Shown: positions 1,824 through 52,766 of the stretch, piece after piece | Numbering within the stretch: position 1 is the stretch's first letter | How the letters are laid out: every line of letters begins with the position of its first letter | Assembly: GCA_947034885.2 (NCBI GenBank) | Contig: OX344758.2 | Span: forward strand, 2,048,501 to 2,112,500 | Source: Thuidium tamariscinum | Lineage: Eukaryota; Streptophyta; Bryopsida; Hypnales; Thuidiaceae | Reading direction: 5' to 3' | Length of the DNA: 64,000 bases | Position numbers and translations under genes: made by a program | The notes under the pieces: model-generated | What the model was told of the DNA's origin: nothing | What the model saw: only the letters and a program-made list of their open reading frames with translations | The model's database searches: none

Positions 1824-2815
1824 TTGAAGAGTGATCCAGCACTTCAGAATTATTGGTTACTATATTCTTTCCTTAGGTGCCTTATCATAAGAAGTATAAT
1901 GTCCAGAGATTGTTTTTTGAGTATTTTGAAGAATATTCATCTTGTAGACAATAGCAAGCTCTACACCAATCATATTAACCCTATGTTTCATAAGCTAGGG
2001 AAGGTGAGGTGGTTAGTAAAGAATTTTATGCCCTTCTGCAAGAAATTACTAAGCCTAGAGAACTTTCTAATGGTAGACAATATCATGATAGCATATAATG
2101 ATAGGTAGTGTAGTTTCCTACAATACATGATGAACAAGCCAATAAAATATGGTATAAACATCTATGTTACTATTTGCTCAATAACATGTTACATTTGGAA
2201 TTTTGAGGTCTATTTTCGTGCCATGATAGAGGCTAGTAACAATGACTATTTGATAGGCACTCAAGTGCTGCTACATCTTACATACGAGTTGTCAAGTTGT
2301 GGTCATTGAACAAAGTTTGATCATTTTCTTACAAGGGTTAAGTTGTTTAACACATTGTTGTCAAAGGGTTTTTTTGTGAGTGGAACTTGCAAGAGTAATG
2401 TAAAGTTCTTCCCAAAAAGTCTCATAGAACATCACAAGAATGACAAAAAGAATCATGGTAATTCTTTCAAAAAATACACACAAGTGAGCTAATGGCTATA
2501 GCCATTGTTCGTTTCACTTTTAAATTGAGGACTTCTTAGGTACCCCGGTTAAGTACACATAGTAGTTCCCTACGTATCAATTGCTTCATGCAAAGGTGGA
2601 TTCATAGTCTTCATGTTGTGTTTCCAACTTGTCCTATAATTTTAGAATATATAACTTATATGAAGGGCATCGATGTAGTTGATAAAAAAATGAGCAAACT
2701 ATACATACCAGATTCACACAATAAATGGTGGCACCACTTTCTTCTATTTCTAGTGGATACTAGTCTTGGAAACTCCTATGTCTTGTACACTATGAAGCAT
2801 CTAGGATAAAGGTGT
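1824..2815 (+). mobile_element. piggyBac-like transposase remnant (DDE_Tnp_1_7)
   Basis: Several adjacent frames match successive parts of a piggyBac-family transposase. In order they show: MSRDCFLSILKNIHLVDN, the usual MSRDRF..ILRNLHLVDN motif (about 1900-1960); a VDNIMIAYNDR segment equivalent to the first catalytic Asp motif (about 2070-2105); NKPIKYGI (about 2130); TKFDHFLTRVKLF, the second catalytic Asp region usually DNFFTS (about 2314-2350); FPKSL (about 2410); and GIDVVDKKMSKLY followed by NKWWHHFLLFLVD (about 2665-2760), the third catalytic Asp region. All three Asp positions are still recognisable. The reading is broken by at least two stops and frame changes, so no protein can be made from it. 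Element ends were not located. PiggyBac transposases cut and paste at TTAA, which fits the TTAA-flanked short elements elsewhere in the window; that link is inference. Confidence 0.75.
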
Positions 2816-5129
2816 TGCAAATGATACATTTATAGTAGAAAACAAGCTAGTTTGAATTTGTAAGGGATAGGGAGGAAAATACATTTATAAAGGTGCCTAC
2901 TTTGTCAAAGCTAATAGTTGAGCAAAATGGGTTGTTTGCATTCTTAGCAAGTGGTAGTACATATTCTTGCTACGTTTTCTAGGCACTCCAAAGGACAAGG
3001 ACTCTATCTAGGTTGTGAAGGCAAAAATTTGTACATGGAACTTTGGAGCATGAAAGATGCAGAGTACACGGTCCTCATTGACCCCCTATTTTGTAGTAGG
3101 CTTGACATCCACCCTTCTCCATAGAACATCGCTTCTTATTTTTATGAGTTGCCAAGAATGTCTATGTCATAGGTCTTTTGATAATTTTTTGTAGTACTTC
3201 AATATTTATGCCACTATATGAATCCTATTTTTGTAAATAATCAAAAATCCAATTTTGTCTCCCATCCCGAGTTTTGCAATATAGTAGTGTCAATTTAGAT
3301 GTTTCCCAATAGTTTAGTTAGTCAAGCCTTGTAGTTTTTTTAATCTCTTGGGATCATATAGACTCAAGTGTCATTGGAAGTGTCTAACAATGAATTTATG
3401 ATTGTCTAGACTTAAAATTTGTTTGAGTAGTAGACAAAATTTATTGAAGAAAGATTCTATAAGTGATATGACAATTGTATATGGGTGTTTGCTTTTCTTG
3501 GTGTAAGTGAAGTCACTTTTAGTTGCCAAAATTCTTGCATTTAGTTGATTTGCTTTTGAAGATCTAAACTACATTGGAATTAGAATGGGAATAATGGAGT
3601 GTTCAAAGCTTTGCAAGGGTTCACTTTGTTGTTGAACTTCCCATGTCACATAGTTTGTACCTCATCTTTGAAGATTATGTGCATGCTTTCATGAGTTGTT
3701 GAATGTTGATGTTGTTTTGTAGAGATTTGTTTCTATCCAAACAAGCTTATTCCTTTACTAAAGCACCTTGATCCTACACTAATTGGCCTAGGCTATGTCC
3801 GCAATCCCCTACAAAATGCTAAGTCTAATATCCTATAGCCAAGACGCTTGCTTGGGCTTACATCAATAGTCCATGGATTGCATCAATGACACCCATTTTG
3901 CATTTGGAAGAAGATTTGAGCCACATTTTTTTTCCAATTTTTTTTGGCACTACTTAAAAGATGAAACAAATATTTGTGTATTCACCAGAGGATGTGACCT
4001 AAAACTCAAGAACAAATTTCCTAAAGTTAATTGAATTTGTTGGCCTCTGAACATGTTATCCCATCTCCACCCCTTTTCTACTAGATTCTCTTCATTCCTC
4101 AATACTTGTGTCTCCAAATTTTTTTTGAAAGATGTATAGAGCAAGTCTTATACTAAGCTTTAAAAAAATGTATTCTAGCATGTGTAGCATTATTTGGAAA
4201 ATTTCAAAGTTATATAAAGAGCAAAAAACAAGAGCTCGATAATGCACACTATTTTCCAAAATACCATTATAATATGTGGACTCAACAATTCAAAAATTTT
4301 GCCAAAAATAATTTATGAACTACATTAAGTGTATACCACTTTAGTATGATCAAATCACTCCATTAGAAGAGATTTGAGGGCAAGATAGGATTGTTTCAAG
4401 GTCATGTTCTATGTACTATATTGAAACAATAAATCAACCCATTATGGTTTAATTTTTTAATTTTTTTTTCAAAAATTCCAAAAAGTGTTAAGATTTTTTT
4501 TAATTTAATTTTTAAATTTTAAATTTTAAATTAAAAAAAAAACTATTTTCTAATGTAGCAATCTCTCGACCACGTCAAATTGTTGATGTGGCACATTCCC
4601 ATAGTTTGGGAATTCAATATCACTTGCAGTCTACTAATGCCCTAAAATATCTCCTAATGATTTGAACCACCATCTTCTTTTACAGTAGCTTCAAATGCAA
4701 TTGAAGTTTTTTTCATCCAACTTCTAGTGAAAGTAGGCTTAGTTCTCAAGGGGTTAAGAAATTTATACTTATATATATACCTTTTAAAATATTATTTCTA
4801 TCTTTAGATAAAATATTTTTAAGAATAGATGTTGAAATTTTAGAGAGTTATTTATGAAAAAAGATATTTAGAAAAAAATCTATCAAATTATTTATAATTC
4901 TAAAATTCATCAAACTTACTTCTTTAGAAAACAAAATTTGACAAAGATGTGTAATACTATAGTATAGAATGGACACAATAATTATAAATCACAAATATAT
5001 GAAACTAAGTTTTACATGCAATATATAATGATTTCACATACTAAAAGCCTATTGTAGACTTTTCAAAGATATATCCAAGCTCTTGTGAACATATGTTTAT
5101 AAATTTTGTATAAATCTTTTAGGATAGCT
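2816..5129. other. AT-rich intergenic DNA with dispersed repeat fragments
   Basis: No gene seen. About 4540-4640 holds a fragment (gtagcaatctctcgaccacg, then a tgggaattc) that resembles stretches near 13675-13760 and 24440-24480, so it is a worn dispersed repeat. A CAAGGGGTTAA end at about 4743-4753, read in reverse, resembles one terminus of the 930-bp TTAA element family, but its partner end was not found. Confidence 0.4.
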
Positions 5130-6588: not shown

Positions 6589-7519
6589 TTAACCCCTAAA
6601 AGACCAAAGTGCCTTTTTTCGGCAACATAGCGATTTTGGGCAGGTACATGTGACTAGAGATTTCAATGTTTTGGAACCAAACTTTAATAGAAGGTGTAGA
6701 CAAGGAGTATCTTCAAAGCCCAACAATTTTTGTGACTTTTGCCTACATGGTTGAAAAGTTATCGAATGATATGTTGTTTGTTTCTCAACTTAGGTAGTTC
6801 GGGCAGATTAAAAAATCACTTTTTTTTTGAAATATAAAAATTTTAAATTGTTTTTTATAGATTTTAAATGTATGTGAAAAGCTTCAAATCATTCCATTTG
6901 GATTAATGAGTCAAAAGTTATGAAGAATTTTAGTTTCCAGGTAGTTATGGATTATCTATTCTAAAAAAAACTTTGAAGTCCTTTATTTTACTCAATTTTC
7001 AATATTTTTGAAAAAAAAATTAAAAAATTGGGTGTTGATTGTTTATTACAACATTTGAACCATTGGGATTGGCATTTTTCAATTCAACAAATAAATTGTT
7101 AACATTTTAGTATTTTGAATATTCTCTACTTCTTTCTACTTACTATTTTTTTGTACATATTGTACAATTCCAAATGATTTGAAAATTTCCAAGCATGTAG
7201 CCAACTTGAATTGAAGAATGAATTCAAAGAGTAACAACTATTTTGAAAAAAAATTCATACAAATGTGGCCTTCTAAATTGCAGCTACCTAGATTTTCGCA
7301 TTGGTAAAAAAAGGACTTTTGCAACTTTAAACACTAATATCTTGCAATCTACATAGCGAAATTTTCTGAAATTTTTTCTACATCTTCTCAAACTAGTGCA
7401 CTAAAAGATCCTATGGTTACATTATTCAAAAAAAAAAAATTTAATTTGGTAATTGTCTTAGAAATGATAGTTTTGGAGCAGTTTTGGTGAAAACATAGTC
7501 AAAAACCTTCTGGGGTTAA
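6589..7519 (-). mobile_element. TTAA-flanked MITE, family 1 (about 930 bp)
   Basis: Bounded by TTAA at 6589-6592 and 7516-7519. The left end is TTAACCCCTAAAAGACC; the right end, reverse-complemented, starts TTAACCCCAGAAGG and continues into TTTTTGACTATGTTT. The same interior occurs at 14287-15944 and 40291-41223 (opposite orientation) and at 41220-42152 (same orientation). It carries no protein-coding frame. TTAA duplication plus CCC termini is the signature of piggyBac-mobilised non-autonomous elements. Strand is given relative to the 40291 copy. Confidence 0.8.
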
Positions 7520-7893
7520 TGGCTTCATGAGCTAACGTATTGTAAACAATACTTGAATGCACTATTTATTGAAAAAGATTATTTTTTTGTACCTTCTCTT
7601 CCAATCATATTTCTTCCTTTCTTGCTTAGGGAGAAGTATCAAAACTAACCCTACTAGGCGAGTCTATGAAACTAGAATGGGTCCTAATGAAAAATCTACA
7701 TTTATATTGAATAAAATATTTACATTTGAGCAAAATAAATGAATTTTTCATCGTTCTTCATTCTTGTATTAGCACACACTGAGCTTAACTTCTCAGTGAA
7801 TTTCTCCAATCTTACATGCTGAAATGCTTAATTTATCCATTATAGGTACTTGAGTTCTACCTTATTGAAAATCTTTCAATCTGACTACCTTCC

Positions 7894-7914
7894 TTAAACC
7901 CTAAAAACCCTAAA
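7894..7914 (+). promoter_or_regulatory. Tandem telo-box motifs upstream of mL53
   Basis: Two AAACCCTAA-type motifs lie back to back about 270 bp before the mL53 start codon, followed by three copies of cctggaa. In plants, telo boxes (AAACCCTA) are common in promoters of ribosomal protein and translation genes, which suits a mitoribosomal protein gene. Confidence 0.55.
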
Positions 7915-14286: not shown

Positions 14287-15944
14287 TTAACCTCTTAAGT
14301 TTTTTGACTATATTTACTCCTAAAATGGTTGAAAATTTCCATTTCTAGTGCCAATACCAATTTTTTTAAAACATTTTTTGAGATTTGTAACTATAGGAGG
14401 GCTTTGGCAAGAAACACTTGTCCTTTTTTTTGTCCCCTTGACCTTTAGGAGGTAGTTTTTTGCTCATAACTTTTGCATCTTTTGTTCATTTGACTTGAAA
14501 CTTGAAATGAAGGTGACTACAAAAGTTTTACATTTTTTGTAATTTTTTCAATTTTTTAGAAATTAATTTACTATTTTTAAACTGCCCCCAATTGGGTGTC
14601 TACCATGGCCATTTTGGGGGGTTTTAGTCCTATTTTTGACCCAAAAATGAAAATTTTGAGCTGAAAATTGGCATGCAAGGACCTCACCTAAAGTTACACA
14701 ATATTACGAAGAGATTTTTTGAAAATAATATATTGTTCAACCTCCACATGTCGTCAAAGTGGCTAACTTTGCGCAAGTGTAGAGAATAGAATTAATTTTT
14801 TCCAAAGATGAAATTTGTTTGAAAAGAAAGACCTTTACTTCGAGAAAAAATGGGTAATTCATTTTCATTTTTTGAATTTTTTTACTATTTTTACCAAATT
14901 AGTGAAAAAGAGCTATTTTCATTGTATTTTCCATTGTCTATAACATTTAGAGAAAAAATTTCTTAGGTCTGAATTTCAAGAGACATGATATTCTCATTGC
15001 TCTTCAAATTATCCATATTTTTTTCAATTTAAAAAAAAATTATTTCAAAGGGTCACAGGACTCACAGGACTCACTCATTTTGAGCCATTTTGAGACAAAA
15101 CCGGTAAGTGTTTCTTGCCACGACCCAGGATCTTGTAGTAAAATGATTTGAGAACATGTGCAAAAAATTCAAGATTTTTTCATTGTGTAGTTTGCAAGAT
15201 ATTAGCATTTGAATGCTCAAAAATAATTTTTTTATCCTATGGAAAACAAGTGCACTTTAGATGGCAACAATCATATGATAAATGGTCCAAAATGGTTGTA
15301 TCTCTTTAGACTCACTGTTGAAGTCAAGTAGGATACTTGCCTAAAAATTTTCAAATTGTTTAGGATTGTACAACATATAGGAAAAAAAAAGTAAAGTAAA
15401 AGTAAAAAGCAAATGATTCAAAATACAAAATTGTAAAGAATTTAATCATGGAATTGAAAAATGCCAATACCAACGGTTGGAATATTGTAATAAACAATCT
15501 ACATCCTATGGTTTTATTTCTTTCAAAAAATCTTGAAAATTGAGTAAAATAAAGGACTTCAAAGTTTATTTTAGAGTAAAGAATCCATAATTGCCCACAA
15601 ATAGAAAAACCTCATAACTTTTGACTCATTGATTAGAATGGAATGATTCAAAGCTTTCCTTACATACATAAATGAAGCAAATTAATTTCAAATTTTTATT
15701 TTTCTTAAAAGTTATTTTTTTTTCAATTTGCTTAAATTGTCCGCTTACAAAAAAAAGTAACATATTAGGCCATATCTTTTTACTCATATATCTAAATGTC
15801 TTGATTTTTTGTACATATGAAAGATATTCCTCATCCCCACCTTCTACTAAAATTTGGGCCCAAAATACGAAAATCTCCACTCACACATACCTACCCAAAA
15901 TCATTATGTTGCCAAATTTAGCAAGTTGATCCTTTAGGGGTTAA
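14287..15944 (+). mobile_element. TTAA-flanked MITE family 1, split by a nested element
   Basis: TTAA at 14287-14290 and 15941-15944. The left end ttaacctcttaagttttttg and the right end gatcctttaggggttaa match the 40291-41223 copy in the same orientation. The 1.66-kb length is explained by an insertion at 14399-15126; without it the element is about 930 bp. Confidence 0.8.
14399..15126. mobile_element. Nested 728-bp MITE with TGGCAAGAAACACTT inverted ends
   Basis: The left end is GGGCTTTGGCAAGAAACACT. The right end, reverse-complemented, is GGGTCGTGGCAAGAAACACT. AGGA flanks both sides (14395-14398 and 15127-15130), while uninserted family-1 copies have a single AGGA inside taggatctt. The interior is AT-rich, with a gccattttggg-type near-palindrome, and is non-coding. 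The 4-bp duplication that is not TTAA does not fit the piggyBac group, and I cannot place it in a superfamily. Confidence 0.75.
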
Positions 15945-19215: not shown

Positions 19216-19755
19216 CGTTTGTAAAGTTTCGTTATCAATGATCCTTACAATGTCCATTCAGCTGCCCACAGATAAACATACCTTTGTAACGAGAACCTCT
19301 CACATGCCACTACGCCACAAATCCTACGTGTAGAAATTTGTGACTGTACACAAATGTCGTACAATACAAGTTATGTATTTATTGTAGAACCTGAAATCAA
19401 ACTCAAGTAGTATTGTGCTACATTCCTTTCCCAAGATGCAAGCAATTTCCGTAACCTCCACCCAGCGATTGTCGCATGGTCTCGCTCGCTTGAGATTTCT
19501 CCTGCTTGATGAAACACGGAAGCGATGGGAGAGAAAAGAATCTACCCTTTTTATTTGTGGGTTCAGTCTCTAATCATGTGTTTTGTGCGTGGCGGAATGT
19601 ATTTAATTCTTGAATGCGTGATGTCCAGATCAGAGCGACCCGGGGATCGATTCCATTCTACTGGAGGCGTGGTTGACATTGTGCGGCGGATTCTCTGCCG
19701 GAAACACTTCGACAAGATTTCTGCAGCGCGCGTTTGCTGGATCGGAGGATTTTTC

Positions 19756-22700: not shown

Positions 22701-23202
22701 ACTGCAGACGGCCTACAGCTTGGGCATGCGCAAGTTCGTCGTCTCCAACATCGGCCCCATCGGTTGCGCCCCTTCCATCCTGTCTTCTCGGAGCTCTTCC
22801 GGCGAGTGCGTGCCCGAGGTGAACAACTATGCGCTCGGATTCAACTCCGCGTTGAATTCCCTCCTGCAGACGCTCCAATCCCAGCTCCCGAACTCCGTGT
22901 TCGTCATCACGAACGCCTACGAGGTCATGAGCCGCATTATTCGTAACCCGTTGCAGTACGGGTTCACGGACCCTCCGACCACGGCGTGCTGCGGCGTGGG
23001 GAAGTTCAACGGGATTGATGGAGCGTGCAGAAATGTGGGAAGTAGAAGTCTGGGAAGTTTGTGCACGGATCGAAGCAAAGCCGTCTTCTGGGATGCGTTT
23101 CACCCCACGGAGAAAGTGAATGAGATTGCGAGTGAGTGGTTTATGAATGGGGGGGAGGATGTGATCACGCCTATGAATGTCAAGCAGTTGCTGGCGCTGT
23201 GA
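19756..23202 (+). CDS. GDSL-type esterase/lipase, four exons
   Basis: Exons 19756-20008, 20589-20716, 21388-21627 and 22708-23202 join in phase to 371 residues, normal for plant GDSL lipases. All introns are GT-AG. A hydrophobic signal peptide (about residues 1-29) indicates secretion. Block I is GDSLVDVGNNNY (nucleophile Ser40), block II is YASAGAGI, block III is GGNDYVNNY (Asn about 172), and block V is FWDAFHPTE (catalytic Asp about 336 and His about 339). These enzymes hydrolyse acyl esters such as cutin, wax or lipid substrates; the substrate here cannot be told. I chose ATG 19756 because it opens the signal peptide. The frame stays open upstream to 19525, but that stretch adds no domain and its frame is broken in the A2 copy. 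Introns 1 and 3 carry transposon-derived repeats. Confidence 0.88.
20323..20551. mobile_element. TTAA-flanked MITE, family 2 (229 bp), in GDSL intron 1
   Basis: TTAA at 20323-20326 and 20548-20551. Ends are TTAACCCTAAAGCGCTC and, reverse-complemented, TTAACCCTGAAGTGTC. A close copy is at 42847-43075. Non-coding and entirely within the 580-bp first intron. Confidence 0.85.
21883..22042. repeat. 160-bp foldback in GDSL intron 3
   Basis: The left arm (gggagcaagccattgtgggc, then gaaattgtaatggtgtacat) and the right arm (atgtacaccaccattacaat, then tttgcccataatgagcttgc) are near-perfect reverse complements with a loop of under 10 bases. Probably a foldback MITE; target duplication not resolved. Confidence 0.75.
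22285..22650. repeat. Degenerate minisatellite at the end of GDSL intron 3
   Basis: The phrase cgtgatttctcygtttgaaa recurs near 22330, 22390, 22453 and 22570, with gaaac..tgtg and gtgctta phrases between. Spacing is irregular (about 60-115 bp). It ends about 60 bp before exon 4, so copy change could affect splicing. Confidence 0.6.
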
Positions 23203-32065: not shown

Positions 32066-32076
32066 GTAATTTTAAT

Positions 32077-32450: not shown

Positions 32451-35400
32451 GTTGCCAAGTAGTAGATGGCTTTGATTATGTGGATATTTCAATCGCCCAA
32501 TGAGTCTATGTTCGAGGTTTGATTTAGCATCAGGTTGCCAAGCAATAGATGGCTCTATTGTGTGTGGGCATTTTCAATTGCCTAATGAGTAGTTTCAATA
32601 CAATGGGCATTTTCAATCGCCCAATGAATAGTTTCAATACAATGGGCATTTTCAATCACCCAATGAGTAGTTTTATAGACTCAATCAATAAAAAAATTTA
32701 CACTTACCAAATACATATCTTGAATTGATTCATAATGTACAATACAATGTTTAGTGTGACTTTAACAAGGACAAGATTGCATTAGTGTAGTTTACATTTT
32801 GTCTAAATCCCACAAAATCCAAGAGTATAGTACAAGGGTTCAAATCTAGGGGAATGATCAAATAGTCTAACGTATTGTGGCTAAAGTCACTTGTAATTGG
32901 AAATAGAATAGGAAATACACATTATTAACACTTAAAATTCTAACAATTAGCATCCACTCTTATTCCCAAGTATACAAATTTGTTGGCCAGTCCTTAATAA
33001 TGCTATGAACGCATGAGTGTAGTCCCAGTCTTAAACTAGTATGTGGCTCAATTTCTATAAACAATTAGTTGTGTAGACCAATAATTTGTCATGCATGATC
33101 TAAACTGAATGCAATATAAATATTATTTAACAATAATTGAGTAACACATGGTTCATTAATTACTGGTAATTGTCTTTACCAAACAAATTGTAACTGTCAC
33201 TATTTAACTATCCAAATTACTAATTAGGATGCACAAGGAAATATTCCTTGTTCTATCTAAAAAATAATTTGTCACTATCTAAATGCGGGCATGAGTGTAT
33301 ATACAAGCTCCTTATTTTATCTGCACAACTTCACAACCATTGGTTAAAACATCCCTCAATTAGTTTACTAATTTGCTAATACCTAATTTCAAACAAGTGG
33401 TTGGAATTAAGCCTTGACAAGGTCTAACACCAACACCAAGTTAAAAACAATTTGTTTAGAGCAAAATCTCCAAATCTAAACCAAATCCTCTTGTCCAACC
33501 ACCATATCTAACAAACTTAATTCAACAACTTGTACATACAATTCTAAGCAATAATTAGTTTTTCAAAATATCATCTTCTAAGCTATTGGTTTGTATATCA
33601 ACTTGTAATAATCAGCAACAAATACAACTTTCAACAATTTGTTCAAAATCCCTAGTTACCCATTGCACCATGACACGCAACCTCAAGGTATTGAGCTAGT
33701 ATGTTCTAACTAATTGTTTACAAAAATAATATCTATCAATAACTAGTCTAAGCAACTAATAGGCAACAATTAATTGAATAAACAAATTCCAAAACAATGG
33801 TTAATATGAGTTCAAATAACTGAACCATTCATTTTACAATTTGTTTGTAGCTATAAAAACACAATCTCGATAAATAATCAATGGACTTTTGATACCTTAC
33901 ATACTACACATCTGGTTTCCAATTCATTACAACAATTAGTCTGTAATTAATTCCAATGTTGAGACCTTTATTCGCTAACAATTTCCCACAAACTGACTAA
34001 TTGTAATTCACAAAATAAAACCAAAATTTGACATAGCAATCCAAATTTATTATCTTCAAACCAGTTGTTGATGCGGATTTCTCCAATCAAACTTATATAC
34101 AAACCAGGAATCACAACAATTAGTCAATTACATACAAAACAATCGATTAACATAAGCATATTATAACACAAATTGTTTTATATATGAATTAGCAATAATC
34201 ATGACAATTAGTTTTAAATAAGCACAGCAACATACAATTTGTTCAAATCTCAAAATTAACAACATCCATTAGGCCAAAACAATTAGACATACTTGTAAGA
34301 ACACTAATCAATATCAAAACATGAAAATACAATTTGTTTTAGTATGCTAATCAACAACATCTCTAACAAACATTTCTAAGTTATCCATCGTAAAATACAA
34401 TTTGTTCCAATTTGTTATGAAATGACATGCATGGTGAATCTAAATCAATTGGACTATTTTTATATCAACAATTAATTCCAAATTGATTAATAATTCAATA
34501 TAAGTCCCACATAAAATTAATTACAATCATTTTAAATGAATGTGTTATCACAATGGCTGATTTCCAAACACATGCCTATAATACTTACCAAATCACTACA
34601 AATTGTAAATTAATCAAATTGACAAACCACTTGTACTTACCAAACCCCCAAACTAATTAACATATCAAGCCAGCAAGTAAATAACACAACCGATCAATTC
34701 ACATCATTACAAAATTGCACCACAACAATTAGGTAATAAGCTTCTTACCTCCTTCATCTGTGAAATCTCCAACAAATCATCCCATCTGCGAATGCTTCAT
34801 CACTGTGACCAAAATGCTTGCCAATCGAGTCTGCATAAACAGCTTACAAGGCCTATTGCTCCCTCCAATGCAACTTGTTTACTCAAACAATTTGTTGATC
34901 ATCACGATAGACAGGTACAAGGTTCCATAACATTGTTTACTCATTTATTTCAATAGTCTTATCAATGACAAGTTTAGAAATCTAACAATTGATAGATCCC
35001 AAGCTATCAAAACAAAGTAAATTAAATTGTGACAATTAGTCAATACTCCTTGCACCAAGAATCTCTGTAGCACTCACACATTCAACAGTATGCATATTAA
35101 CCCTTAAGCGCATACGCATCCAAAAAGTGGATGCGCCTTAGTCAACCTTGATTTTAACTTTAATTATAACTATTTTTGGAATTTGACTTTGACTAAGAAA
35201 ATGAAGCTTGACAAGTTTTCTTTCAATTTCAACTTGAAATTTTGAAAAAATTGAAAAATTGAAAAAGTTATTGCAATTGCAAGCTCTATGTGTTAAAATC
35301 CAAAAAACACAATTTGTTGTGTTTTTCATTCATATTTTTTTCTTCTCAAATAAAATTTCAATTTCAATTACAAAATTAAGTTTTTCATTGTTATCTTCAT

Positions 35401-36629
35401 TAATGGTAAAATTTTTAGATTATTCTAATATATATTCTAGTTGATATAATTATTTTCTATCCTAAACTTTAAAAAATAACAATGATTTGTAGTTTTCATC
35501 AAAAAATTTGAAAAAATTTGAGTATATAGGAAGTTTAATTTTCTATTAGGTAAAAACATCAAATTTTTATACCTCTATTCAATAAAATATTAAATGTGGT
35601 TTAATAGGCAAAAATTACTTCAAGGTCTTTGTTGTGGTTGTTTGGGGTTTAAAAAATAGAATAATCAATTGAAAATTTTGTAGACTAATATTCATTGCTA
35701 CTTGTAACTCTTGAGAAAATTTCAAATAATTTGGATCATTTCTTCTATTTTTACTTATTTATTTCTAGTTTTTGCAACAAAAATGATAACAATTACAATT
35801 TTTTACAAAATCAATTGAAATTTCTCCTAATATTACATTCTCCATATTTTGAAGTAATAAAAATATAAGATCAATATTTGAAGGCCATCTAATATGCTAA
35901 ATTCACCTTAGACATGATGTTTGACCAAATGGCAATGGATCTTGTCGTTTAAGGGTTAATCCAAATCTATCCATTGAATTACAAAGTACAAAGTTTAATA
36001 CACAATTTGTCAAAGTGCACCACACTACGTAAGACAGACGATCACTGAATCTTACTTCACACAATAAATAAGTTAAACAACTTGTTCCCCCCCCCCCCCC
36101 CCCCCCAACATTGTCACACCAACATACAAAATCACATACAAAATCTTACAAAATCTAATTACTGGATATACAACAAGACAAATTGTAAATGCCTCCTCCC
36201 TAAACAACCACAAGGTCCAATCACGGGACACACAAACACAAATACAAACAATTTGTAAAATATAATTGCATTAAAATTTGAAGGAGTTCATCATTACAGA
36301 AGAAAGAGAATTGTCTAAAATCGAAAAGAATACCGAGAAGACCAAGAAAGGGGGGAATTACAATTTGTCAGACTACATGCTGCGAGAGAGAGAAAACTGC
36401 CTGAACTGTAAGCCAACCAATTGTCTTCCTTAATGCAAAACAATTAGTTAACAATACGTGACTAATAGTTATGATTTGCTAACAATGAAACTGCTATTAC
36501 TATTAGTTTATCTTCTTACCTCCATTAGCCAAAAGCTGAGAGTTTACTAATAGTTTTCAACAGTAAAAGACAAATGATAAAAATTCAAAAAATACATGGT
36601 GACTACAATTAGCAATGCCAATTCTAGTT
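32451..36629. other. AT-rich DNA in which ACAATTWGT recurs
   Basis: No gene found. The nonamer ACAATTAGT or ACAATTTGT, mostly on the + strand, recurs by eye around twenty times from 33061 to 36440, for example near 33061, 33448, 33635, 33837, 33929, 34116, 34204, 34232, 34330, 34393, 34875, 35028, 36003, 36241, 36360 and 36432. A 20-base poly-C run lies at 36087-36106. One TTAA element (35097-35959) interrupts the region. Confidence 0.6.
35097..35959. mobile_element. TTAA-flanked MITE, family 4 (863 bp)
   Basis: TTAA at 35097-35100 and 35956-35959. Ends are TTAACCCTTAAGCGCATACG and, reverse-complemented, TTAACCCTTAAACGACAAG. Interior is AT-rich and non-coding; its short overlapping frames are low-complexity. 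Confidence 0.8.
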
Positions 36630-36925: not shown

Positions 36926-37476
36926 ATTGACAGTTACTGCCACTTTTTGGTACATTGTTGTGTGAACAATGTACCAAAAAATGGCAATAACTACCAATTC
37001 TAAAAAACTTAAAATTTTAATTTCTATTTAGTATACTTGGCATGTTCTTACAAGCTAAAGAATTTAAAATTTAAAAATTTTAATTTTTTTTGGGTGCACA
37101 ATCTCTATGCACCCAAATTTTTTTTTAACTTTTTAACTTTTAAATCTTCATTTCCTTCCCCCCCCCCCTCTCCTCTTATAATTTCTTGAAACCAACTTGA
37201 TTGACAAACATTATGGGACATGTGTTCCTGTATATGTATTCATATCTATATTCGTATTCATATTCGTACATGTACATGTATTCGTATATGGACCGTGTAT
37301 GGACTAAACCCGTATAATCCGTATAATACATGTAGAATATCCATATCCATATTCATATCTGAATGGTTCAGATTATATCTTACATGATCAATGGCTTGTA
37401 AATTTTTTGAGAGAAGAGGGGGGGGCTAATTAATTGACCTGGGTGGTATGTCACTTTTTGTCACATTGTCACATTG
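36926..37476. mobile_element. Insertion with a CGTATTC-rich core, copy 1
   Basis: Absent from the matching point of A1 (about 19210). It begins near gattgacagttactgcc, with a gtacattg..caatgtac hairpin, and ends near gtcacattg. The centre (about 37220-37350) is a degenerate run of tattcgtat and catattcgta words. Same architecture as 38133-38758. Exact ends uncertain. Confidence 0.55.
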
Positions 37477-37979
37477 TAAAGCTTTGCTATCTATGGTTCT
37501 TATATTATCCACTTCAACTGCCCATAGACTTATATACAAGAACTTCACACAATGTAGCAAAGTGATAAGACTCTATTGTAGAATTTTGTGATTGTATACC
37601 AATGCTATAAACTACAAGATTTGTACTTATTGCGAAAATTGAAATCAAAGTCCAACTACTAGTATAGCACTACATTCCTTCACAAAATGCAAGCAATTAG
37701 TTTTGTAACCTCCACCCCAACGATTGTCGCATGGTCTCACTCGCTTGAAATTTCTCTTGTTTGATGAAACACGGAAGCGATGGAAGAGAAGAGAACCTCC
37801 CTTTTAATTTGTGGATTCAATCTCTAATCATGTGTTTTGTGCCAAGTGGAATTAATATAATTCTTGCATCCATAATGTCCAGATTGACCCCAAGATCGAT
37901 TCTACTGGAGGTGTGGTTGACATTGTGCGGCGGATTCTCTGCCGAAAAAATTTAGATAAGATTTGTGCAATGCACGTTT

Positions 37980-38892
37980 GCTGGATTGGAGAATTTTTCA
38001 TGGCTGCAAAGTTGCCAAGAGGCTTGAGGATGGTGGTGGGGATGTTGGTTGTTGTGATGATGGTAGCGGAGGTGCAAGAACAAGGGCCTCCGGCGACTTA
38101 TACATTGGACAACTCTTTGGTGGATGTGGGCACTGATTGTGTGAGGCAGTGACTGCCTCTTTTGAGCTCATTGTGACAAACTATGTCACAATGAGCTCAA
38201 AAACTAAAAAAATTTAAAATTAAAAAAATAAATTTGCACCTCCCCCTCAACCCCTCCCAATCTGATTTAATGATTTAAACATTAAATTTTAAATATTAAT
38301 ATTTTCAAGCCCCCTCCCCTCCCAAATTGTTATAAATATTAAATTTTGAATTTTCAAATTTTTTTAATTTGTAAATCCCCCCTCCCCCCACCCCCTCTTA
38401 TAATTCTCAGAGGGTGGGGTTGGAGACAAAGGATATGGGATAAAGGATTCAGTATACAATATTTTGTATTCGTATATCCGTATACCATATTTGTATTCAT
38501 CATATCTGTATTCAGTACTAGTATCCGTATTCTGTATTAGTACTTTGTATCCATATACAGTATCCATATACTGTATCCGTATTCAATTTCCGTATTCAGT
38601 ATTTGTATCGGTATGCGATATCAGTATCTGATGGTTGTTGATTTTTCGTGGAGGGGGGTTGGGATTTTTTTTATTCAAATCCAACGGCTACTGATTTTTT
38701 TGATGAGGGGGGGTGGGAAAATTAATCACATCACAGTGACTGCCTCTTTTCGTCACATTGTGGGCAACAACAACTACTTCTTCACATTGGTGGAGGCCAA
38801 CCATAAGCCTTATGAAATTGATTGGCTCGATCGACAAGCCACCGGGCAGTTTTGTAATGGCAAAGTCATCTCAAATTTTATCAGTAAGTGCA
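37980..38892 (+). pseudogene. GDSL lipase exon-1 relic (A2)
   Basis: The signal-peptide region (from the ATG near 38000) through SLVDVG and then NNNYFFTLVEANHKPY match exon 1 of the A1 gene. The GDS nucleophile motif reads DNS, so the catalytic motif is lost. A 626-bp insertion splits the exon at 38133-38758, and exons 2-4 are missing downstream. Not functional. Confidence 0.8.
38133..38758. mobile_element. 626-bp insertion with 8-bp target duplication and CGTATTC-rich core
   Basis: TGTGGGCA occurs on both sides (38125-38132 and 38759-38766), while A1 has it once. Subterminal gaggcagtgactgcctcttt and gtgactgcctcttttcgtca motifs are near both ends, with a tgagctcattgtga..tcacaatgagctca hairpin. 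The centre (38440-38640) is a degenerate run of gtatccgtattc words. An 8-bp duplication suggests hAT-type mobilisation; terminal inverted repeats are weak. Confidence 0.65.
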
Positions 38893-38920
38893 TGAATGGA
38901 GTAATGCCAAGTTTTATCTA

Positions 38921-39320
38921 AGGTAGAACCACCCATAAGCAATTGGCCCCCATAACCAACCTATCAATGGATGCATTTCCAACCAAGGCTAGAATGGTTT
39001 TTTTTCTACTTTTCAAAATTGGGACTAAAAGTTCATGGCATATGTCCCAAAGTAATGTGCAAAAAAGTAGAAAAGAGTGAATTAAAAAGTGTCTTTTTAA
39101 CGTGATTGGAATTAGAAGAGTCCACAGGTTGACAATGGGTCTGGTGCACCTTTTGCCTTTTTAAATTTATAGTAATTTCAATTCATAAGATAAAATTCCC
39201 AAAGTTTTTGCAATCCCCATCATTTCTATCATTGCACCTCTCAAAATATTTGCTTTACCTTGCACTACACCAAATGATGTCTAGAATACCTTAAATGATT
39301 GGTTATAGGTGATTCTACCT
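38921..39320. mobile_element. 400-bp MITE with AGGTAGAAYCACC ends
   Basis: Left end AGGTAGAACCACCCATAAG; right end reverse-complemented AGGTAGAATCACCTATAAC; TA on both sides. A1 intron 1 continues directly at the matching point (about 20040-20055). A TA duplication would fit Tc1/mariner-like mobilisation, but the longer terminus resembles the TTAA element at 39812, so the class is open. Confidence 0.65.
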
Positions 39321-39811
39321 TATATTTGGTGAATCAGACAAATGGACTCATGAATTCCTTGTGAAAATAGAATTTTATAATGTCAAACTCCCAGGGAGTA
39401 GATCTCACGATACATTGATTTTCACTTTGTTCCCTCTGAGGTTATTCCTTCACTACATTTCCCACTACAAACCTTTAGACTTTGAGTTACCCAATGTGAA
39501 AACATCCAGAACCATCTGTGTACCCATTCCAGACAAATAGACTTCTGTTGATAATGTCCTCCTTAGCACAATTAAATCATTTGCATACTTAACTTTGATT
39601 GATTGGTTATTGATTCTTTATATTTTGATATTAGGACCAAGTTCTGTGACTAGTTCAATGACCTCATGAATTTCACTATGGTCTAGACTATAATACTATA
39701 ATATCTTGATGGTATGAGAATAATTTATTAGGGTAGTTCATAACTCAATGGAGTGGATTTATCCTTGTTAATTATCACTGGGTCTAGGGTAAGCTTATGA
39801 TCAAGTTTTAA

Positions 39812-40082
39812 GGTGGGTACACCTAAAAGCGCCACTTATTCATACTGCACCTAGTTCTTGTAATTAGGCTGTTCAGATTTTCATATAGTCTTGTTGGCAA
39901 GTGAAAGTACATTCCAATGCATCACAAAACGGAGGATTTGGATATCGTATGCAAAAGTTATTAACGGTCAAACTCTGTTTCTGAAAGCGCCATCTACAGT
40001 CTGTGAACATGACTGATTTTGGAAATGTATGCACACTGTAGATGGCGCTTTTAGGAACGTGGTGCTTTTGGGTGTACCTACC
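39812..40082. mobile_element. TTAA-flanked MITE with GGTGGGTACACC ends (271 bp)
   Basis: TTAA at 39808-39811 and 40083-40086. Ends are GGTGGGTACACCTAAAAGCG and, reverse-complemented, GGTAGGTACACCCAAAAGCA. An internal tagatggcgcttt..aaagcgccatcta pair lies near 40000-40050. Distinct from the CCC-ended families although it uses the same target. Confidence 0.8.
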
Positions 40083-40290
40083 TTAATCAACATTCTTCTT
40101 GGATGTCCTGTTACTTGATGTCATCTAATAATAAAAATAATAATCTTTGTTGGTAGTACAACAATTCTATTATCAACGTGTCTGTTGAGTTCAATGGATC
40201 ACAAGGAATGGAAGCTTACAAGTTATAAGCATGCTCAAATTGAGCTCTATTTGGAGAGAGATGTGATTTCAGTTCTTTGGTTGAATTTGC

Positions 40291-41223
40291 TTAACCCCTA
40301 AAGTTCTTTGACTATGTTTCCACTAAAAACTCTCCAAAACTGTCATTTTTAGTGCAAGTACCAAGTTTTAGAAAAAAAAAAATTTTGGACAAATGTAACC
40401 GTAGGATCTTGTAGTAAAGTAGATAGAAATGATGTGGAAAAAATTTCAGAAGAATCCACCGTGTGGATTGCAAGATATTAGCGTTTGAATTTGAAAAATT
40501 CATTTTTTTAACCCTGCTGAAAATTGGGCAGCTGCGGTTCAGAAGGTCTGATTTGTATGAAAAAATGGTCGAAATGGTTGTGCTTCTTTGGATTCTTTAG
40601 TAAGAACAAGTTGGCTACGTGCTCAAAAAATTTCAAATCATTTGGAATTGTACAACATATAGAAAAAAAATAGTAAGTAGAAAGAAGTAGTGAATCATGT
40701 AATATACTAAATTGTTAAGAATTTAATTATAGAATTAAAAAATGACAATCCCAACGGTTGTGACATTATAATAAAATATCTACATCTAATGTTTTTATCA
40801 TTTTTCAAAAATATTGAAAATTGAGTTAGATAAACGATTTCAAAGTTTATTTCAAAGTAAAGAATCCATAACTGCCCACAAACTAAAAAACTTCATAACT
40901 TTCATCTCATTGATCAAATTAGAATGATTTAAAGCTTTCCATGTATATATAAGTTTGACAAACCAATTTCAAATTTCAATTTTTCAAAAAAGTGATTTTT
41001 TCAGATCTGCCCGAACTGCCCGAGTTGAGAAAAAAGCAACATATTATGCAATAACTTTTTGACAATGTAGTCAAAAGTTATGAAAATTGTTGGGCCTTAA
41101 AGATATTCCTAGATCCCATGTTGTGTAAAAATTTCAAAGAAAAATATTAAAACCTCCATTCACAGGTACCTGCCCAAAAAAGTTATGTTGCCAAATACAA
41201 AGGGTTGGTCTTTTAGGGGTTAA
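40291..41223 (+). mobile_element. TTAA-flanked MITE family 1, first of a back-to-back pair
   Basis: TTAA at 40291-40294 and 41220-41223. Left end ttaacccctaaagttctttg, right end ggtcttttaggggttaa. It matches 6589-7519 in reverse and 14287-15944 directly. The right TTAA is shared with the next element. A1 has one TTAA (24016-24019) in place of the whole pair. Confidence 0.85.
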
Positions 41224-42152
41224 CTCCTCAAGGACTAAATTGTGTTTTTTTGGCGACATAGCAATTTTGGGCAGCTCACTACGGATGGAGTTTTTATTTA
41301 TTTTTCTTTGAAATTTTCACATAACATGTATCCAAGGAGTATCTTGAAGGTCCAACAATTTTCATAACTTTTTGACTACATGGTCAAATTTTTATTGCAT
41401 GATATGTAGTTTTCAGTGGTTGACGGGCAGCCCAAAAATTTCTTATAAAAACATTTTCTTAAAATTAATAATTTGAAATTGATTTTCTAGATGTATATAT
41501 GCAGAAAGCTTTGAATCATTACATTTTGATTTATGAAATGAAAGTTATGAGGAGATTTAGTTTGTGGGCAGTTATGGATTCTCTACTCTAAAATAAACTT
41601 TGGAAGCCTTTACTTTACTCAATTTTACATATTTTTGAAAAAAAATTAAAATTTTGGATGTTGATTTTTTGTCATAATATTAAGACCATTGAGATTGGTC
41701 TTTTTTGATTCTATAGATAAATTTTTAACAATTTAGTATTTTAAATCACTCTCTACTTCTTTCTACTCATTAATTTTTTCTTATATGTTGTACAATTCAA
41801 AATGATGAGAATTTTTTTGAGCATATAGCCAACTTGCCATGAAGAATGAATCCAAAGAAGCACCACCATTTTAGACATTTTTCCATAGAAATGTGACCTT
41901 GTGAAGTGCAGCTACCCGATTTTTTGCAAGGATAAAAAAGAAGGTTTTGTCAATTCAAATGCTAATATCTTGCAATCTACATGGTGAAAATTTTTGAAAT
42001 TTTTTCCACATCAATTGACACCAATGTACTAGAAGATCCTACAATTACATGTGTCAAAATTATAAAATAAAATAAAATTTGGTGCTTGTAGTAGAAATGG
42101 CAGTTTTAGTGTGTTTTTGGTGAAGACATAGTCTCTGACCTTTAGGGATTAA
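41220..42152 (-). mobile_element. TTAA-flanked MITE family 1, second of the pair, inverted
   Basis: Begins ttaactcctcaaggactaaa at the shared TTAA and ends cctttagggattaa, with TTAA at 42149-42152. Opposite orientation to its neighbour, giving a large imperfect inverted repeat of about 1.86 kb. Non-coding. Confidence 0.8.
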
Positions 42153-42319
42153 TTCCTCAAATACCTTTTGTCATGAATTGCCCTAATGTCATTCTATTTG
42201 GAAGTGAATACCTTGCACACTATGCACATTACTATCATTCATTGTAGCTCATTTTCCTTATATTCAGACCATTTGTCTATCAACATGCTTCTCACCCAGC
42301 GGGCAATTAGGTTAAGTTA

Positions 42320-42594
42320 GAATGCACTAAGAAATATTTTTAGTAAATTTTCCTTGAAAGACAAGTAGAATTGACATCTAATCCAATCGTTTCATATTTT
42401 TCTGAGCTTTTTTGAATTAGTTATCAAATTTTGAACTTAAAATGGCATAGGGCTCAAAAATGGTGCCCTAGCTAAAATGTATATTGTCAGTACACTGCTA
42501 AAGGCTATGAAAAAAAAACATGTACTAGTACTATATATTTAAGGTAGAGCACCATTTTAGAGCCCACTCCATTTAAGAGCCTTCTACCTTATTC
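42320..42594 (-). mobile_element. MITE related to 44246-44571
   Basis: Reverse-complement relative of 44246-44571, sharing phrases such as gctctaaaatggtgc and gcaccattttagagc. The A1 counterpart (about 24187) reads straight across (gcactatttaatg), so this is an insertion into A2 with a worn 3-bp target duplication. Confidence 0.65.
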
Positions 42595-42846: not shown

Positions 42847-43075
42847 TTAACCTTGAAGCGCTCCGACGTTCATATTCTGGATGATTAACAAAGGGCTTCA
42901 AGGCATTGTTTCATCCAATTAACTTCTCATTTATCAAATGTAACATTTGAATCTAGAAAAGACAACCTTCCTTAATGACCAAATTCATTAAATTTTGGTA
43001 AATGATGTATCTAGAAAAAGCTATAAGCAAAAATGCACAAAAATTCAAAAAAGGATTGAGACGTTTTAGGGTTAA
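42847..43075. mobile_element. TTAA-flanked MITE, family 2 (229 bp)
   Basis: TTAA at 42847-42850 and 43072-43075; interior closely matches 20323-20551. C2 shows a single TTAA at 51196-51199 in otherwise identical flanks (cccaagc and agcctag), so the insertion site is read precisely. Confidence 0.9.
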
Positions 43076-43114
43076 AGCCTAGAAAACAAAGCCATCACCA
43101 TCCAATATGAAGAC

Positions 43115-43768
43115 TTAACCCGTAAATGTCCAAGGCACCAAAATCTGGTGTTTGCAAAACTTTGAAGTTAAAGAAAACTGAACCAAGTTGCTATTTTTAA
43201 TAATTTGTATTTTAGAGAATTATTTTCAAAGTCTACTTCAAGTATCAAAAATCTGATCTTCAAAATCATTGACTATGATTTTTCTATTGAAGATTTTGTG
43301 CAAGGGTACCCATTGCAATCTTGACTTTCTCTAGTGTTGAGGGATCTTAGAAATGAGCCTCAAATACATTAGATCTTAGAGAAAAAATCACATTTGAAAT
43401 TCATTCAAAAAAATATATAGTAGATTTTGAAAAGCAATAAGTTGATCGGGGTTATGCATGTTAGGCCCTTTCACCTCATATTTTCTTGGTCACCAATTTT
43501 TTAGATTTGACTTGTGAAAAAGAGGATTGAAAGACTTCACATCACTTTTGCAATTTTGACATCCTTGTGATCAAACATTATAATCTCTCAATCCATAAGT
43601 GATATTATTGTGTTTTCTTTTCCTAAGTGATCTCCAATATGTCTAGTTTGAATTTGTATGTTTACATTTAAATAAAAATTAATACAACTCATCATAAAGT
43701 TGACTTTTTGTGCACTTTAGAGCAAATTTCTAGAAGCTCAGAAAAGGCCTTGGACATTTAGGGGTTAA
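43115..43768. mobile_element. TTAA-flanked MITE, family 3, copy in C1
   Basis: TTAA at both ends. Termini are TTAACCCGTAAATGTCCAAG and, reverse-complemented, TTAACCCCTAAATGTCCAAG. Also present in C2 (51239-51884), so it was in place before the block duplicated. Non-coding. Confidence 0.85.
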
Positions 43769-46739: not shown

Positions 46740-48735
46740 CAGCCGAAGCTTCGCCTCTGGTCGACGTCTCGACGACAGAGGACTGGATTAGGGTTCCCTT
46801 TAGATGCGCCTAAACCCCGACCCACCTAGCTAGTAATGGCATCCGTAGAGCCAATGCAAGGCCTGTGAGCTCCAAAGTTCTCATGATCCGCACCTTCGTC
46901 GCTTTCTGTGGAAGCTCCAGATCGAGGTCCTAGAAATGACGAAGGCTTGGCTGGGTTGTGATTTTGTATTGCAGTTCTAGTTTGGCCTTTACACTTGTCG
47001 AGATTGCGACTCGGGCGATCGAATCACGCGGATTTCTGCGACTATGATGATTCGCCCACTCGCTCCGCCCTCTCTCTCCACTAATTAGCCACTTGCTCCC
47101 ACAACTCTTTCTCTCCCTCCCTCCTATCCCTTCTTTCAACTGTCTGCGCTCTGTTTGTGCTCCTCTCCCGTGGTTCACTCGGCGTCACTTGGCGGTAAGC
47201 TCTCCCTCGTTTTTCTCTCGTCTTGTTGCAGGATTACTGAGCCGGGATTATTGGTCTTTCATGCTCATTTTGGTGATGCAAGAGTTTGATTCGTTTGGTG
47301 TGTTTTGAGCAGGTAATTCTCGACAAATGTTCAAGAATATGAATCCCATATTCAAGCGAGTGATCAGCTCCAGGCTTGTCCAAGGATGCTACACCTCGGC
47401 TCACTTCCCGCATCATGGTACGCATGGTGCCTATGAAGCCTTATTTGGGAATTCAATTATTCAACTTGTGATTTAGGGTTTATCAAACTTAGAAAGGAAA
47501 AAACAATGACAGTTGCAGGGTTTCTTTTCTTTTTGTCTTTCAGTGTTAAACATCAGTTTTTGGCTCGATGAACTTTATCAAGTAGGAGTTTGGTGTGTTT
47601 TAAGTTTTAAGTCGGCTATTTGTGATTTGTGATTTGTTTGCTCGATAGGGTCTGGCCATTTGTCTACGCTCCACTCCCTTGGTTTATCCCGGTCGCCACT
47701 AGCTCCGCCTCCGCCATCACCATGGGGTAGGGCATTCCGTTTTTGCTATGGTTTTGTTGCAAGTGAGCTTGGCTTGGGATACTGTGTTCATGCATACTGG
47801 AGTTTGCTTGTAAGTTTGTATTGACTCCTTTGAATGTTGGAATTTAAACAGGTACGGCAGACATTGGGGCTAATTTGTCAACAGACTCATCTGTTCGGCA
47901 GGATTTGACAGATCTTTCCGAAGTTGTCAAGGAGATGAAAAAAGAGATGGGTGTCTATCGTCTGTCAATTGCAGCCTTATTTGTTCCATACGTCAATGTT
48001 GTGGCTGGTATGTTTTTCTTACATCCTTTTGATTTAGCAATGGGTCTTATCTATCTGTGATTACATACAAGGATAGTTTATTGAGTATTGTGAACAACTA
48101 CTCTAATTTTACATTAGAAGAAAATTTATCAATCTCTTGTACAAATTTGATGCATAGATTGCCACATAGATTGATTGATGTATAGATTGATGCATAGGCC
48201 ACATAGATTGTAAGATCATAATTTTAGGTGGTGTTATATAACTTTTTATTTATATTTGTTATTTACTTTTGACAAGTGAAGTTCTACTTTGGGTCTCTGG
48301 TGTTCAACCCAAATTTGTCCCAGGAGACACCTCTGCGAGACTTGCTCTGCATAGGGCGAGAGCGTATGAGGTGTTGGTCAACTCTACATCAGTTGCGAAG
48401 GTTCTGCAGTTGAAGAAGAAAGATTACAAGAACTTTTTGCTCACTATTCTTGGGGACCAAAACAACTCAGCATACTGGAAGACACTTGACAGCCTTGAAA
48501 AGGCAGTAGTTGATGCCAAAGCAATGGTGGAGCACTTCCCTTCTCATGTCGGGGAGGAACAAATCCGTGTGCTTGAGAATTTTGACAAGCTATGTGGTCT
48601 TATTGAGGTTATTTTATTTTATTTTTTGTCACTTAATTATTAATCTAAAATGTTCATTTATCATTTGTAGGTATTATGACCCATTCTAATCAACCATTGT
48701 TCTTGGAATGCGCAGGGAGGGAAGGTTTGAATTTA
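46740..48735. repeat. Segmental duplicate block B2 (CpG-rich copy)
   Basis: Collinear with B1 (29350-32450) but without its CACTA-type MITEs. Relative to B1 it lacks about 290 bp in intron 3, with ctgt at the joint, probably a deletion. Confidence 0.8.
47327..48730 (+). CDS. Unrecognised, probably organelle-targeted 223-residue protein, five exons
   Basis: Exons 47327-47417, 47649-47726, 47852-48007, 48276-48607 and 48716-48730 join in one phase (1-1-1-0) to 223 residues, ending GGKV then TGA. The start, MFKNMNPIFKRVISSRLVQG, is basic, hydroxylated and free of acidic residues, like a mitochondrial or plastid presequence. Exon 2 is Ser/Pro-rich. Exon 3 holds an amphipathic stretch (DLTDLSEVVKEMKKEMGVYR) and a short hydrophobic segment. 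Exon 4 is a 110-residue charged, helical-looking domain (LQLKKKDYKNFLLTILGDQ, LDSLEKAVVDAKAMVEHF). I do not recognise a family. The exon-4 acceptor reads gacaaG where the B1 copy has gacagG. Splicing at the shifted AG would change frame and stop within about 40 codons. So this copy may be broken at that one point, or use another acceptor. Confidence 0.55.
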
Positions 48736-50988: not shown

Positions 50989-52766
50989 TTGATTATGTGA
51001 AAAAGCTGGCAGACTTTGAATAATGTGCATGTTTGTGATTTGTGCTTTTTTATTGCAAATTTCTTATTTATGAAATTGGTTGAGTTTTATAGAGAGTCAA
51101 AATCTTTTGGTGGGCGTCTGAAATCTAAATTGAGACTTGGTTGAAAGGCACTTTTAGAATGTACATATTATAACACATAATAAGCATCCCAAGCTTTAAA
51201 GCCTAGAGAACAAAGTTTTTGCCAACAAATATGAAGACTTAACCTATATAATGCCCAAGGCACCAAAATCTGGTGTTTGCAAAACTTTGAAGTTAAAGAA
51301 AACTTAACCAAGTTGTTATTTCTAGTAGTTTTGAGAATTCTTTTCAAAGTCTACTTTAACCATTAAAAACTTGATCTTGAAAATCACTAACTATGATTTT
51401 TCTATTGAAGATTTTGTATAAGGGTACCCATTGCAATCTTGACTTTCTTGAGTGGTGAGGGCTCTTGGAAATGAACCTCAAATACACTAGATCTTAGAGA
51501 AAAAATCACATTTGAAATTCTTAAAAAAAAATATAGAGTAGATTTTAAAAACCAATAAGTTGATTGGGGTTATCCATGTTAAGCCCTTTCACCTCATATT
51601 TTTTTGGTCACCAACATTTTAGATTTGACTTGTGAAAAGAGGATTGAAAGGCTTCACATCACTTTTGCAATTTTAACACCCTTGTGATCAAACATTATAA
51701 TCTCTCAATCCATAAGTGATATTATCATGTTTTCTTTCCTAAGTGATCTCTAATATGTCTAGTTTGAATTTGTATGGTTACATTAAAAAAAAAAATTAAT
51801 ATAGCTCATCATAAAGTTGACTTTTGTTCACTTTAAAACAAATTCCTAGAAGCTCAGAAAAGGCCTTGGACATTTAGGGGTTAAAGCAAACAAGATGGAG
51901 TTAGTCAAAATTATCATTCTTCATTTCTATAGGAATTTTGAAAGTCATTCATTGAACACTTTGAGTTTGTTGTGGTTTTATAAGGTTAAGAGCTGCCTCA
52001 ATCTATACTCTAGGATCAAATAAGTTGCTCATCACTGATACTGATATGGATTGAGTCACCTACCTTTTGGTGTTGCAGACTCATGGTGAAGCAACGTTGT
52101 GCCAATGCATGTCTGCTTCAGCAAATTGTAAACTCATGTGATGCCTAAATCTTCTAGCTTTGGGGGGCAAAAGAGGACATGTGATACAAAATATTCTTAT
52201 ATTTTTCCCTGTAAGTTAATCGCCGAACTTCAGGAAAAAAAATTCATCACAAATAAAGGTGAAGGCAGAACAGTACTTACAACAATTTTACTGTCATTCA
52301 GGCCCACAGAACTTGTCAGGAATTTAATCTTGAAGCTCACAAGTTTAGCTCGTACTAAAAAAAAGCAGTATTGTTCATGTTTTACTCAAGTTGCAACAAC
52401 CACTCCTAAATTTGCTTTATCTTCAATCTTAGCATAACTTGAATGACACTTCGATCAACTTAATTCTATCGTCTGATAACTAAGCTTTCATCGTTGGTGG
52501 TTGCCAAAACTGAAATTGGTAGAAATGCACTGACAACAATCTTTCATTTCAACTGTGAGAAAACAATCCCAAATCATCAACTCTGCACTTGACTTGAATT
52601 CACACTGAATTTCTTTGGACAGCTTATCTTCTCAAATATTTCCATTTGTTGTTTTCTTTTGCTCCAAAAATTGCTTCAACCTTTACGCCATGATCATCAT
52701 CACCCTCAATTCACACACGTGAGAATGAAAGCTTGCAGCCAATTGATCTCGTCCTGTTTTGTTACA
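50989..52766. repeat. Segmental duplicate block C2
   Basis: Copy of 42633-44972 lacking the two C1-specific insertions, and so the reference for their empty sites. High similarity on both sides of those sites. Confidence 0.85.
51239..51884. mobile_element. TTAA-flanked MITE, family 3, copy in C2
   Basis: Same element as 43115-43768; left end ttaacctatataatgcccaa is more worn, right end tggacatttaggggttaa intact. TTAA at 51239-51242 and 51881-51884. Confidence 0.8.

Follow-up and report, generated by a model that had tools for sequence, protein, structure and literature searches.

The piggyBac transposon of Trichoplusia ni carries TTAA-CCC ends, as do the moss elements described here, and the miniature inverted-repeat transposable elements (MITEs) derived from piggyBac in animals are short, non-autonomous sequences that use the same TTAA target and have ends in common with autonomous elements. 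Structural work on piggyBac assigns the first 16 bp to the core and a palindrome on one end, at bp 17-33, to a pair of C-terminal domains (PMC7351741). A 64,000-nucleotide stretch of the genome of the moss Thuidium tamariscinum (assembly GCA_947034885.2, contig OX344758.2, positions 2,048,501 to 2,112,500; hereafter the window) contains nine TTAA-bounded elements of four MITE families, F1 to F4, together with part of a decayed piggyBac element. The sequence data make it very probable that many lineages of autonomous piggyBac elements inhabit the nuclear genome of this moss and that F1 to F4 are their non-autonomous derivatives, mobilised in trans.

A 2008 grapevine survey lists only five other superfamilies as described in plants by then (PMC2528002). 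A 2023 review names PiggyBac among the MITE superfamilies of angiosperms (PMC10004981), and a table from a fern assembly gives 1,230 PiggyBac-labelled repeats (PMC6890710). For mosses, "piggybacking" is the sole related word in the excerpts of one genome paper (PMC10619864), piggyBac is absent from the available passages of a 2026 genome review (PMC13120521), and a search of open-licence papers found, among the matches listed, no paper on piggyBac elements of mosses. Domesticated PiggyBac and MITEs are discussed in a ciliate paper (PMC9942856). What is unusual in the present case is the host; the superfamily is a known one, and no new kind of system is involved. As read from the DNA, this land plant has piggyBac elements of recent mobility and large families of TTAA MITEs. 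The moss families differ from animal piggyBac MITEs in this host and in their many copies.

A search of the moss's own genome (363 Mb, 19 contigs) for the transposase domain PF13843 gave 116 scored matches from 659 first-look candidates, the weakest with an E value of 1.4e-70. The same domain gave no matches in 14 control genomes, a weak control because those named are bacteria and archaea. Paired TTAA-CCC ends, 4.95-5.62 kb apart, were found in 17 of the 20 loci fetched; some loci offered several candidate pairs, and there the pair enclosing the gene was taken. These 17 elements represent 13 lineages, with L009 to L012 forming one family and L018 and L019 another, and the longest stop-to-stop frame seen runs to 1,214 codons. 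All six proteins scanned contain the PF13843 domain (249-269 bits against a cut-off of 22.4). Open reading frames were sought at 15 loci and picked by a motif resembling the third catalytic Asp; 14 are listed, none having passed at L022. They are 31-72% identical to one another in protein sequence, and the first, second and third Asp motifs were recognised in 12, 13 and 12 of them. A C-terminal Cys/His pattern is present in 11 of the 14, and Pfam gave no separate hit for such a domain. The one moss transposase compared with the PDB, that of L028, has piggyBat of Myotis lucifugus (9c0f) as its best match (E 1.2e-28) and also matches piggyBac (6x67/6x68; E 4.2e-20), with which the moss elements have a related DDE domain and the TTAA target in common; they differ from piggyBac in being larger (~5 kb). 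In viral contigs, no relative of the one transposase tried was found (14 pattern matches, none confirmed), nor was any relative found in phage records.

Several of these elements are nearly identical. L009 to L012 differ at 0-1 positions in 5,096 bp, L018 and L019 are 99.6% identical, and ten rows of the genome search, the four L009-family copies among them, have the same score and each an open frame of 1,023 codons. The 600-base flanks of the four L009-family copies do not match one another. Such near-identity probably reflects recent movement, and the transposases may be active today. The proposal of the first-pass annotation, that piggyBac-type MITEs occur in a plant that also has a piggyBac transposase, is supported, more strongly than it was put there, by near-identical long-frame elements bearing TTAA-CCC ends in the same genome.

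The same annotation had placed nine CCC..GGG elements of F1 to F4 in the window, each bounded by TTAA, and all nine are present at the positions named, with TTAA at both ends (background: 418 TTAA in the 64,000 bases). F1 comprises an older-subfamily copy on the minus strand at 6589-7519 (F1a), a plus-strand copy at 14287-15944 (F1b), a plus-strand member of a young burst at 40291-41223 (F1c) and a minus-strand copy at 41220-42152 (F1d), whose TTAA at 41220-41223 is common with its neighbour. The remaining elements all lie on the plus strand: F2 at 20323-20551 (F2a) and 42847-43075 (F2b), F3 at 43115-43768 (F3a) and 51239-51884 (F3b), and F4 at 35097-35959. The CCC/GGG ends are partly decayed in the elements at 14287, 41220, 42847 and 51239. 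The element at 51239 had been presented as a duplicate of that at 43115; it is indeed a TTAA-bounded F3 copy and does not count as an independent insertion, because it was copied with its flanks in a segmental duplication. F1b is unusually long because of a nested insert of ~0.74 kb (near 14400-15130). This insert has inverted ends GGG..TGGCAAGAAACACTT with AGGA on both sides, and pieces related to it occur in the flanks of L019 and L009. Back-to-back insertions with a single common TTAA, as at 41220-41223, were also observed in L010 (2146-2149) and at G000 C1:22300402 and C2:30519460; in one of these cases a young element of the L009 family adjoins an F1 MITE.

Genome-wide, the families are large. 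Counts cover the best 40 scored places per query, the query itself included, and in F1, F2, F3 and F4 alike these places are full or near full length. For F1, the best 40 of 9,623 first-look candidates are 99-100% identical. The other families each have 39 places besides the query, at 92-94% for F2 (best 40 of 1,521 candidates), 85-90% for F3 (best 40 of 5,260) and 92-96% for F4 (best 40 of 1,031). Six young F1 copies are pairwise 99.5-99.9% alike, and a 45-base F1 end has 63 exact matches, distributed across contigs C1 to C11, while its reversed control has none. In the window, F1 to F4 cover 6,421 of 64,000 bases, query elements counted in, and in the flanks of 14 loci they make up 4,047 of 42,000 bases (9.6%). 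Cover of a tenth of the genome is an extrapolation only, because these flanks adjoin transposons and so are no random sample.

Empty sites give direct evidence of insertion. The region near 24 kb that we read from its translation as GDSL-lipase-like has one TTAA, at 24016-24019 on the plus strand, where its other copy has TTAA-F1-TTAA-F1-TTAA, the pair at 40291 and 41220. Likewise, a single TTAA at 51196-51199 (plus strand), in a duplicated segment, matches the F2 element at 42847. A third empty site, for the F1 element at 6589, lies in L038, with 77% identity over 147 columns and a 2-base gap beside the TTAA. Since all three sites hold a single TTAA, these F1 and F2 copies must have inserted there; a search for such sites yielded none for F3 and F4. 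TTAA stands on both sides of all 18 MITE loci that were cut out (six each of F1, F2 and F3, four of them the window's own copies), a count favoured by design, since TTAA was part of the queries and the loci taken were best matches only. The duplicated GDSL-lipase-like region itself spans 19219-24190 and 37474-42329, in pieces that are 78-89% identical, with differing transposon insertions in each copy.

A further feature is common to most of the autonomous lineages and some of the MITEs. Ends were scored from 0 to 5 for a palindrome of 5-7-5 layout at bp 17-33, a pattern first spotted by eye in the same ends. At the end upstream of the transposase gene, 11 of 13 lineages score 4-5, while the other (3') end reaches at least 4 in none of the 13, its highest score being 2. 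The window has 832 TTAA flanks, and 30 of them, MITE ends included, score at least 4. A relative of the window's decayed element, fetched after the rule had been set, scores 5 upstream and 1 downstream, and the decayed element itself scores 3. Among the MITEs, F2a and F4 score 5 and F3a and F1a score 4, as do one more F2 copy (5) and one more F3 copy (4); F2b scores 3 and F3b 1, or 4 if shifted by one base. A scan of the first 200 bp at the 3' end, using the same half-sites and 7-base spacing, found no second copy of a lineage's own palindrome clearly above shuffles in any of the 13 lineages (best L015, equalled by 26 of 200 shuffles). According to one source, piggyBac has identical 19-bp palindromes on both of its ends and piggyBat confines its palindromes to one end, the left, which bears three (PMC11707139). 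The moss elements resemble piggyBac, as described in PMC7351741, in that one of their ends bears a palindrome at bp 17-33. They differ from it in that the 200 bp scanned at the other end held no second copy in any of the 13 lineages, and from piggyBat in that their 5' ends show one copy. Because no second copy was found at the other end, their palindrome layout is closer to that of piggyBat than to that of piggyBac.

In the model that is best supported, the autonomous elements of ~5.0-5.6 kb, organised as TTAA-CCC..GGG-TTAA, code for a transposase with an N-terminal extension and a DDD catalytic domain, to which most of those scanned add a C-terminal Cys/His motif. Cut-and-paste transposition in trans would carry F1 to F4 into TTAA sites. 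If the moss complexes resemble the solved structures of piggyBac, 16 bp at the tip of each end would lie in the catalytic core. On the end that precedes the transposase gene, the 5-7-5 palindrome at bp 17-33 would be gripped by dimerised C-terminal Cys-rich domains. The moss palindrome is a candidate binding site of the C-terminal domain.

The first-pass annotation had suggested, openly as an inference, that the lineage of the decayed element at the start of the window moved the MITEs. The transposase remnant had been placed at 1.8-2.8 kb; the piggyBac relic is real, and its extent was misjudged. Searches by tblastn with moss transposases give homology at 1473-2839, broken by stops and a frame change, and the element as a whole measures 6,966 bp, with its left 2,209 bp outside the window (in L052) and its right-hand part at 1-4757 on the plus strand, where the 3' TTAA occupies 4754-4757. 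It is bounded by matching TTAA-CCCCTTGAGRACTA ends, which recur on its closest relative. The first 19 bases of the relic are the same as the 3' end of a relative sharing 63% identity with it over 102 residues. The lineage is small, with six other matches above 100 bits (51-63% identical) and the next at 84 bits.

Whether this lineage specifically moved F1 to F4 was judged from end scores, counted as matches over 16 bp at both ends (maximum 32); among 2,000 random TTAA-flank pairs, each given the best of 15 end sets, the 99% point is 17 and the maximum 21. The relic belongs to the same superfamily and has TTAA-CCCC ends. It is the sole best match for F1d (21, the first end contributing 12 of 16), and for F1b it and L020 score equally (19). 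Its lineage's ends begin with CCCCTTGAG, however, and its relative bears an AGGAC/GTCCT palindrome. Another lineage beats it for eight of the ten MITE copies compared: F3a matches L020 at 26, F1c matches L020 at 23 (relic 20), a young F1 copy in L030 likewise (23; relic 21), and F1a matches L026 best (21; relic 19). Both F3 copies match L020 or L026 better than the relic, which is outside the best six for F2, F3 and F4; the best scores are 19-20 for F2 and 21 for F4 (with L009). The idea that the relic's lineage moved the MITEs is therefore not sustained, its ends scoring at best 21 of 32 (F1d and the young F1 copy) and most copies favouring other lineages, and we rejected the relic as a demonstrated mover and regard its lineage as an unlikely specific mover of F1 to F4. 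The end scores instead yield a good candidate mover for F3, a fair one for F1 and none so far for F2 and F4. When the MITEs were aligned to the 20 transposase loci, copies of F1, F2, F3 and the 39812 type described below appeared in the flanks, and the only element end in common among the matches listed was that of F3 with L020, over 30 bp (26 of 30). Movement of F3 by relatives of L020 would be the best case of a lineage pairing. The first-pass annotation had named two outcomes that would count against its reading, a lack of genome-wide families and full-length elements with ends unlike those of all MITE families. Neither outcome occurred: the families are there, and so are full-length elements whose ends resemble those of MITEs, the match being close for F3 only.

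Two further explanations touch the elements as a whole. The MITEs could be Tourist-type members of the PIF/Harbinger superfamily with a TTA or TAA target, for which TTAA would be apparent only: both trinucleotides are contained in TTAA, and plants are known to have Tourist MITEs that duplicate 3 bp of target, TAA or TTA (PMC10004981). This is contradicted by the single-TTAA empty sites, by the full TTAA on both sides of the 18 cut-out copies, whose flanks otherwise vary and which are best matches to TTAA-containing queries, and by the resemblance of the MITE ends to those of PF13843-encoding elements in the same genome, all of which leaves it extremely improbable. Alternatively, the elements could all be old relics whose near-identity arose from segmental or assembly duplication and not from transposition. 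The window does contain segmental duplications, the F3 copies at 43115 and 51239 being one such pair. Against this, the 600-base flanks of the four L009-family copies and of the six young F1 copies are mutually unmatched with two exceptions (the pair L010 and L029, which have F1 sequence in common, and L032, in which the left and right flanks repeat one another), and the exact F1 ends are scattered over contigs C1 to C11. Duplication as a general explanation is thus very unlikely.

The reading of F1 to F4 as derivatives of resident piggyBac lineages has its own difficulties. Paired ends could not be established at 3 of the 20 fetched loci (L014, L024 and L025), and many of the genome matches are broken by internal stops. 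Random flanks do not have the CCC start, which makes the random-pair control a lenient one. The runner-up L018 lies close to L020 for F3a (24 against 26), and none of the fetched lineages is a close autonomous partner for F2 or F4 (best 20 and 21 of 32). L020 and L022 miss the exact 5-7-5 geometry, with scores of 3 and 2. Five of the 13 lineages (L009, L013, L015, L017 and L021) carry nearly the same palindrome and so are not independent. F1b, F1c and F1d (1, 1 and 2) and the young F1 copy in L030 (1) lack the palindrome. The failure of young F1, whose copies are the most alike among the families tested, is the chief result against a simple rule.

Beyond this single genome, we incline slightly to the view that mosses of this group harbour a lasting, still active piggyBac radiation, in which many lineages (~30-70% protein identity) would have long open frames at once, would feed MITEs making up perhaps about a tenth of the genome, and would keep a one-sided C-terminal-domain site, at bp 17-33 on the 5' end only. 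Native plant versions of the system could be drawn from a moss so rich in MITE copies and in piggyBac elements that are nearly identical. The moss also has many transposase C-terminal domains that can each be paired with a palindromic site, as material for studying end recognition and asymmetry. If true, the one-sided 5' site would put to a natural test the inherent asymmetry that has been proposed for the piggyBac synapse. Additionally, the moss would offer a plant system for asking how such transposon bursts are controlled.

One further family had been grouped with the TTAA elements and does not belong there. The element at 39811-40109 (plus strand), referred to above as the 39812 type, is a MITE with AGGTRGGTACACC ends and a TA target. 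Among 12 family ends assessed in their local sequence, seven follow TTAA and five follow CTAA, CTGA or ATAA; two of the 12 are the window copy again, in L029, and without them five of ten are non-TTAA. A TA is common to 11 of the 12, and the inverted repeat is AGGTRGGTACACC. The claim that this type ends at TTAA was therefore dropped, and given its TA target and inverted repeat the family is mariner/Stowaway-like. It is common in the genome, all 40 best scored places being at least 91% identical (query included).

Other features of the sequence stand apart from these transposons. A 514-bp segment at 31561-32074 recurs at 48103-48616 with 98% identity and adjoins a more diverged duplication (76%), so that the pair is perhaps a recent conversion. 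On the minus strand at ~53.4-61 kb lies a heavy-metal P-type ATPase-like gene, its family name resting on our reading of the sequence, with a C-terminal tail (53557-54337) of tandem Cys-rich repeats with a period of 126 bases (42 codons). The LEAFY exon examined scores 238 bits with 4bhk, the protein of the moss Physcomitrium, and 107-173 bits with the four other LEAFY sequences found, which marks the host as a moss on the evidence of this one exon. Elsewhere in the assembly, rbcL is present with an open frame on the 115-kb contig C19, taken as plastid, and a second rbcL-like copy lies on a large (nuclear) contig at C1:38347545-38348475 (L048, L049), in two pieces with one stop.

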